DNA from: Thermococcus nautili
Lineage (GTDB): Archaea > Methanobacteriota_B > Thermococci > Thermococcales > Thermococcaceae
Length of the DNA stretch: 64,000 nt
Direction: 5' to 3'
Assembly (NCBI RefSeq): GCF_000585495.1
Contig: NZ_CP007264.1
Span: 248,001-312,000, forward strand
The translations under genes and the position numbers were made by a program. Below, piece by piece: positions 15,217 to 16,413 of this stretch (positions are counted from its first letter, which is position 1; each line of letters starts with the position of its first letter). Under the pieces are notes generated by a model that was given only the letters and a program-made list of their open reading frames with translations, ran no database searches and was not told the DNA's origin.

Positions 15217-15732
15217 ATGGTTAAGGCAAAGTTCGTTGTCAGATACTTCGTGGTCGACTCTAGGGATGTTGATGTCAGAAAACTGGCGGGGACTTATATA
15301 GCCCTGCCTAGCCCTGACGTGGAGAGCCTGTACTGGGCACTTTATCAGATTCTCATGTCGGAGAGTAGTGCAACGGTTATCAAAACGCCAGAAGACATCT
15401 ATTACGTCGCTGAAGGCGCTCACGTTATTAAAAACGCCAAGGAGAGCTATGAGTTCATTATACGTAGAGAAAACGGGCTAAGGAGGGTTGCTGAAGAAAT
15501 ACTCGGTGTGAAGAGGCTCAAGCTCGACACCGTTGTGAATATCGTCCAGGCCGCTCTTTGGGGTTTGGCAATCCTCCTCGGCTACTTGGGCTACAAAAAC
15601 GACGCTCTCAACGAGGTTTCCTCATACATGGCCCTTCTCTTTCTGCTCTCTGGGGTTATTGAGAACTTCAGAAGGGGCTACAAAAAGCGGGAGCGGGTCA
15701 GAGCATCGGCTCCTCATCACGCCTCAGAGTGA
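15217..15732 (+). CDS. Small membrane protein, unknown
   Basis: 171 residues. A soluble N-terminal part (to about residue 105) is followed by two hydrophobic segments (VVNIVQAALWGLAILLGYLG and SSYMALLFLLSGVIENF) and a basic cytoplasmic tail. No family recognised. It starts 30 bases behind gatE. The last 13 or so codons overlap a C/D box sRNA encoded on the opposite strand, so the 3' end may be shaped by the RNA rather than by the protein. Architecture (soluble domain then a hydrophobic pair) resembles the next gene, though clear sequence similarity is not visible. Confidence 0.65.
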   Translation: MVKAKFVVRYFVVDSRDVDVRKLAGTYIALPSPDVESLYWALYQILMSESSATVIKTPEDIYYVAEGAHVIKNAKESYEFIIRRENGLRRVAEEILGVKRLKLDTVVNIVQAALWGLAILLGYLGYKNDALNEVSSYMALLFLLSGVIENFRRGYKKRERVRASAPHHASE

Positions 15733-15755
15733 GGGAAAAGCGCTCATCATCCCCG
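15692..15755 (-). ncRNA. C/D box guide sRNA
   Basis: Read on the minus strand the order is C box ATGATGA (15750-15744), a 16-nt guide, D' box CTGA (15727-15724), spacer GGC, C' box GTGATGA (15720-15714), a 12-nt guide, D box CTGA (15701-15698). All four boxes are consensus, the D'-C' spacer and the D guide have the usual lengths, and GGG before C can pair with CCC after D. C/D sRNAs with L7Ae, Nop5 and fibrillarin direct 2'-O-methylation at the fifth base from the D or D' box. The D' guide GCGCTTTTCCCTCACT is complementary to a conserved 23S segment (see findings). It overlaps the 3' end of the plus-strand membrane protein gene. Confidence 0.85.
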
Positions 15756-15840: not shown

Positions 15841-16413
15841 ATGAAGTTCGTCAACGCCGTCCCAATCCTCTACTACGAGCTCAACGTTCCGCCGGAGAGG
15901 GTTAGGGAGGCCTTTCCTTTGGCACTTGAGTTCAAGAACCCTACTCCAGAGAGCTTCTCAATCGTGCAGCCACCTGGAAAGAACGCGGGACTGCTCGTGA
16001 TTGATGTCAAAGCTGAAAACCGCTACGTCTTCGTCCTTTCGGTTAAAGATGAGCTGGTTTTAATCAACGAAACCTTACCGAGAGTCTTTGTAATCCATCC
16101 AAAGAACCTCGGAGAGTTTTTCAGGGCCCTCGCTGAGGACGAGCTTGAGAGCCTCAAGGGCACCAAGAGGAAGGGAAAGTGGTGGCGTTTTCTCATAGAC
16201 TTCGCCGCAACTTCGGGGGTCATTTACATCGAGAACGAGCTTCACATAGGCTTCTGGACGGCGATTCTCCTGGCTGTAATCTTCGCGGAGGTTGAGTACC
16301 TCTTCGGCCCCAAGCAGGTCAAGGGACCTGCCACTGAGCTCGATGAGAAGACAGTCAGGAAAATGTACGAGGTTTCGGAGAAGAAGGGAAAGGTGGTGAA
16401 GGTCTCCCTTTAG
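15841..16413 (+). CDS. Membrane protein of unknown function
   Basis: 190 residues: a soluble N-terminal domain (about 1-115), a basic patch KGTKRKGKWW, then two hydrophobic stretches (FLIDFAATSGVIYI and IGFWTAILLAVIFAEVEYLFG) and a charged tail. Not recognised. A TATA-like CATTTAAAG at about 15811-15819 is roughly 25 bases before ATG 15841, implying a leaderless mRNA. The stop overlaps the hmgA stop by 4 bases on the opposite strand. Confidence 0.65.
   Translation: MKFVNAVPILYYELNVPPERVREAFPLALEFKNPTPESFSIVQPPGKNAGLLVIDVKAENRYVFVLSVKDELVLINETLPRVFVIHPKNLGEFFRALAEDELESLKGTKRKGKWWRFLIDFAATSGVIYIENELHIGFWTAILLAVIFAEVEYLFGPKQVKGPATELDEKTVRKMYEVSEKKGKVVKVSL

Follow-up and report, generated by a model that had tools for sequence, protein, structure and literature searches.

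We analysed a stretch of 64,000 nucleotides of the Thermococcus nautili genome (hereafter the window; contig NZ_CP007264.1, positions 248,001 to 312,000, forward strand), in which a candidate box C/D small RNA (sRNA) gene lies on the minus strand, over the 3' end of a small plus-strand protein gene and downstream of a TATA-like element (Table 1). The minus strand reads GGGG-ATGATGA-16 nt-CTGA-GGC-GTGATGA-12 nt-CTGA-CCC, with the C, D', C' and D boxes in order and each matching the consensus, over a box-to-box span of 15750-15698 (-), exactly the boxes, order, spacing and GGG/CCC flanks given in a preliminary description of this DNA. In archaeal C/D sRNAs approximately 12-16 nt separate the paired boxes and the D'-C' spacer is short, and the spacers observed here (C-D' 16 nt, D'-C' 3 nt and C'-D 12 nt) are within the range of the class.

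Table 1. Features of the sRNA locus and of the overlapping gene, in window coordinates.
Feature	Position	Strand	Remark
TATA-like element TTTAAAA	15776-15782	-	33 nt upstream of the C-box TGATGA
C/D box sRNA, including terminal GGGG/CCC	15695-15754	-	extent of the Rfam RF00095 match
C box ATGATGA	15744-15750	-	read from the sequence
D' guide GCGCTTTTCCCTCACT	15728-15743	-	predicted target 23S A496
D' box CTGA	15724-15727	-	read from the sequence; changes with C' across homologues
D'-C' spacer GGC	between D' box (15724) and C' box (15720)	-	read from the sequence
C' box GTGATGA	15714-15720	-	read from the sequence; changes with D' across homologues
D guide GGAGCCGATGCT	15702-15713	-	predicted target 23S U444
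D box CTGA	15698-15701	-	read from the sequence
Small protein gene	15217-15732	+	last 11 codons and TGA are the sRNA complement

Such an arrangement had been judged unlikely to arise by chance, and, in fact, a strict four-box pattern (RTGATGA, 9-22 nt, CTGA, 2-10 nt, RTGATGA, 9-22 nt, CTGA; both strands) matched once in the window and in none of 300 dinucleotide shuffles; a looser four-box pattern also matched once in the window and was found in three of the 300 shuffles. The locus is matched over its full length (model positions 1-58 of 58) by the Rfam model RF00095 (snoPyro_CD, Pyrococcus), with 46.7 bits against a gathering score of 45 and with the same four boxes and two guides. This model is generic and matches 22 loci of the genome at E up to 0.001, two of them over the cut-off, so the window sRNA belongs to a larger set of C/D sRNAs in this genome. 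Single-strand folding of the sRNA is unremarkable (z -0.71), in an energy model that does not contain k-turn pairs.

Homologues were collected by a DNA search of 61 genomes of the genus and by running a sequence-only RNA model, built from 15 of the sRNA homologues, on 94 genomes of the family. We were able to identify 48 intact homologues in 47 of these 94 genomes, all with E 1.1e-15 or better, and the four boxes could be parsed in every one of them. The C box is TGATGA in 47 (the parser required this motif for 32 of the 48) and TGACGA in G094, the D box is CTGA in all 48 (CTGA or TTGA being admitted), the D guide is identical over its first 11 nt in all 48, and the D' guide over its last 11 nt in 46, the entry for G090 having been amended by eye. 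Part of this invariance is built in, since the homologues were collected by similarity and the parser filters required parts of the boxes and guides. The short C'-plus-D-guide pattern TGANGAGGAGCCGATG was present in 47 of 115 genomes of the class, all inside the family, and absent from all 21 class genomes outside it. Within the family, homologues with the same guide cores were found in all nine genomes of genus g12, and an intact copy in none of the 13 genomes of genus g13 (G097-G109).

Below the 48 intact copies there is a gap, followed by three damaged copies (E 7.6e-11 to 1.2e-8) in G076, G033 and G030; these decaying loci (L135, L136 and L134, respectively) have lost or damaged boxes. Weak matches of the RNA model start at E 2.7e-6 and up, and the two that were read, in G018 and G004, were rejected as another C/D sRNA, close to L004 of the window genome. 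One genome, G024, holds two copies of the sRNA, the second of which (L063; G024:C1:1402200-1404700) is accompanied by a separate TATA-like run and by a relic of the C-terminus of the overlapping protein; the sRNA and part of the adjacent gene were apparently duplicated together.

An A/T run of at least six nucleotides was observed at -42 to -22 from the C box in 43 of the 47 copies with enough upstream DNA, against 862 of 6755 positions (12.8%) in a control located 100-600 nt away, which lies largely in coding DNA; the run is missing in G079, G096, G085 and G112. In G079 (L035) the sRNA, which lacks the TATA-like run, is located approximately 26 nt behind a gene for HMG-CoA reductase of the same orientation, and it is perhaps co-transcribed with that gene.

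The D' and C' boxes were observed to change together. Among the 48 homologues (G090 read by eye), the combinations are CTGA with TGATGA (33), CTGA with TGAAGA (one), CCGA with TGACGA (10) and CCGA with TGAGGA (four), and no other combination occurs, a pairing of the variable letters that was not demanded by the parser. In the kink-turn, these variable D' and C' letters face each other. The four states require at least five changes on a protein tree of gatE (29 genomes; 10 of its 26 inner branches are open), and the rule has thus survived several changes. With the Rfam match, the conservation, this co-variation and the conserved TATA-like run, the proposal of a C/D sRNA antisense to the end of the gene stands.

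In C/D sRNAs, a guide with complementarity of approximately 10 nt or more to rRNA or tRNA lies next to the D or D' box and the modified base is at the fifth nucleotide. We scanned 23S and 16S rRNA for targets, with LSU numbering starting at the first base of the Rfam LSU match and not at the annotated 5' end. The D guide is complementary to LSU 440-451 over 12 nt, with one G-U at the box-proximal end and U444 at the fifth position, and the D' guide pairs over at least 10 nt with LSU ~493-503, with A496, which aligns with E. coli A466, at the fifth position. Um444 and Am496 in 23S rRNA are therefore the methylation sites predicted from the guides. The two sites are 52 nt apart and unchanged in all 30 LSU genes examined (20 from genomes with the sRNA and 10 from genomes without an intact copy; 30 of the 51 matched genomes among the 61). 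The rRNA guides of Pyrobaculum were described in a review as mostly dual, with sites within 100 nt of each other (PMC7994747). Shuffled guides equalled the score of the D guide in three of 300 trials and shuffled cores that of the D' core in 26 of 300; the D site can thus be regarded as reasonably firm, and the D' site, weak on its own, depends on its proximity to the D site. For the D' guide of the window itself, 23S A2734 scores 22 against 21 for A496, and one 16S site also scores 21. Taking the 16 distinct D' guides, the A496 site ranks first in LSU for 14, is tied for one and is second for one; against 16S rRNA, the guide of G028 scores higher than at A496 and those of G000, G008 and G112 tie, the 16S sequence always being that of the window genome, as was the LSU sequence for eight of the 16 guides.

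Both targets are also intact in all 10 examined LSU genes of genus g1 for which no intact sRNA was found, and the modification would thus be dispensable there or made otherwise. A search for a substitute U444 guide, with GAGCCGATGNYTGA and at most one mismatch, gave matches in 18 of 20 genomes without an intact sRNA, 108 in number against 173 for the reversed control. Exact matches to GAGCCGATGNYTGA were found only in G030 and G101, and these candidates were rejected, having no C/D boxes around them and looking like coding DNA.

The gene at the sense strand has two hydrophobic stretches (identified by eye) and no match in Pfam or NCBIfam. Its overlap with the sRNA, already recognised in the preliminary description, comprises the last 11 codons (15697-15729), which encode the C-terminus VRASAPHHASE, and the TGA (15730-15732), which falls inside the D' guide. 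In all 48 homologues, the sRNA complement encodes VRASAPHHxSE-stop or a near variant, with the TGA in the same frame and opposite the D' guide, and in 45 of the 48 no other frame contains a stop between the boxes. The complement TGA terminates a recognisable gene in 27 of the 48, namely 19 relatives of the window protein (window family) and eight genes for the oligosaccharyltransferase AglB; in the other 21, among them the second copy of G024, into which the window-protein relic runs, no intact recognisable gene enters the sRNA, and boxes and guides are kept. The next plus-strand gene (15841-16413) is, like its neighbour at 15217-15732, without a Pfam family; counterparts of the two share one single-linkage BLAST cluster in some genomes, e.g. 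G011, and the two genes may be distant paralogues.

Among the 19 overlapping window-family proteins, the codon identity at equal residues is 0.895 over the last 11 codons, compared with 0.503 for the body, where the best window of 11 codons reaches 0.707; selection therefore acts mainly on the RNA. The conserved bases are those of the boxes and guide cores, and the codon over the D'-C' spacer varies. Loss of the boxes with retention of the protein 3' end, which had been named in advance as evidence against the sRNA, was observed in G030 only, where the C box is lost and the protein tail is still present; nine other genomes with the protein, in which the sRNA was not found, lack the tail as well. 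Protein and sRNA are both present and located apart in G017. In G068, one of the 21 homologues that no intact recognisable gene enters, the relative of the window protein is terminated by a TAG immediately beyond the D box and in frame with the tail, which likely illustrates the state before the overlap.

The same tail was identified on a second protein. In eight of the nine genomes of genus g12 (L128-L130 and L140-L144), which we take to be Pyrococcus, in part from the PDB matches of its AglB, the sRNA is antisense at the end of AglB, a protein assigned in G088 by Pfam OST domains and PDB matches and in the others by BLAST clustering with G088. When their last 12 residues were trimmed off, the 19 window-family and the eight AglB proteins gave no match to each other with an E below 0.29. 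In eight further family genomes, in which the sRNA is elsewhere or was not found, AglB ends 1-4 residues past the last aligned residue, without the tail. The tail is also present in deposited structures: PDB 3wov carries VRASAPHHGSE and PDB 3vu1 (PH0242) VSASAPHHSSE, each followed by 10 further non-aligning residues, and the chain of PDB 2zag ends in SASAPHH. We read these three AglB chains, 2zag as far as SASAPHH, as carrying the imprint of the guide RNA, and conservation of the AglB tail alone does not therefore denote a function of the protein. We found no paper that links the sRNA to AglB or describes the shared tail, among papers with an open licence.

Parts of this layout are known from other C/D RNAs. 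In the available part of a study of T. kodakarensis, 17 potential snoRNAs were identified as antisense transcripts, 16 of them extending over the 3' end of the gene on the opposite strand (PMC4247193), the same 3'-end layout as that of the window sRNA. The orthologue of the window sRNA in G011, which was taken as T. kodakarensis since a model match at 1446210-1446266 coincides with Tko-sR52, is located at 795504-795568 and is absent from the table in which Tko-sR52 appears, which covers circular RNAs only (PMC9014305, Table 1, the part of that source consulted). Stop codons of neighbouring ORFs were also described inside C/D sRNA genes, where they are placed in the box motifs (PMC7994747, in its available part), and the window sRNA resembles these cases in containing the stop codon of a neighbouring gene. 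It differs in that this gene lies on the opposite strand, its stop corresponds to the complement of part of the D' guide, and the stop serves two unrelated genes; in the same part of that source, antisense examples are not treated separately. For other Thermococcus C/D RNAs an antisense position at a 3' end has already been described, and the shared tail on unrelated proteins is the unexpected point.

The locus is very probably a Thermococcales C/D box methylation-guide sRNA with its own TATA promoter, directed to U444 and A496 of 23S rRNA, whose overlap with the gene is incidental. From the sequence comparisons, it is most likely a double-guide sRNA for 2'-O-methylation of rRNA and not primarily an antisense regulator. 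The latter role, in which the sRNA would pair with the 3' end of the mRNA and alter its stability or methylate it, had been implied by the suggestion that guide RNA and mRNA could pair, and the two are perfectly complementary over 38 nt, by geometry, with a recognisable gene ending inside the sRNA in the 27 homologues mentioned above. However, the guides fit conserved rRNA, the sense partners are two unrelated proteins, and the association with a sense gene is not a conserved one (27 of 48, of two unrelated kinds). The bases conserved are, moreover, those of the boxes and guide cores and not the codon over the D'-C' spacer. Since boxes and guides are kept in the 21 homologues that no intact recognisable gene enters, antisense regulation as the main role was set aside and we consider it very unlikely; a role for the suggested pairing of guide and mRNA is not supported. 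That the window copy is a decayed or untranscribed relic seems most improbable: relatives do hold relics, the C box being lost in G030 and boxes being damaged in G076 and G033, but the window copy retains all of its boxes, the two guide cores and the TATA-like run intact, and the stretch is 98-100% identical to the copies in G034, G079 and G070. The chance that the boxes are fortuitous and the conservation belongs to the protein tail, as its retention in the 19 window-family proteins ending there might suggest, is practically negligible, since the same DNA is conserved with no intact gene over it and in an unrelated gene, there is almost no change at synonymous sites, D' and C' change together and none of the 300 shuffles gave the strict pattern.

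As a methylation guide, the sRNA would be transcribed from its own minus-strand TATA promoter, L7Ae would bind the kink-turn motifs formed by C/D and C'/D', and Nop5 and fibrillarin would complete the particle, in which 23S rRNA would be 2'-O-methylated at U444 by means of the D guide and at A496 by means of the D' guide. A particle of L7Ae, Nop5 and fibrillarin is established for the C/D sRNA class, and the gene for fibrillarin is present in the window genome. The overlap with the gene would be a side effect of position, the neighbour ending at the TGA that is complementary to the D' guide: the neighbouring gene probably lost its own stop and then ran on to this TGA. Transcription, RNP assembly and methylation, as well as this direction of evolution, are what we infer from the comparisons above.

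The window sRNA is one of the dozens expected per genome of this kind, and adds two predicted 23S methylation sites to them. Beyond this, it is likely that a guide-RNA gene here serves as a ready-made 3' end for convergent genes, such that two unrelated membrane proteins share a tail set by complementarity to rRNA and not by protein function; in a bolder form of this proposal, the shared tail may since have been put to use by the proteins. In compact archaeal genomes, an RNA gene on the opposite strand can thus dictate the termini of proteins.
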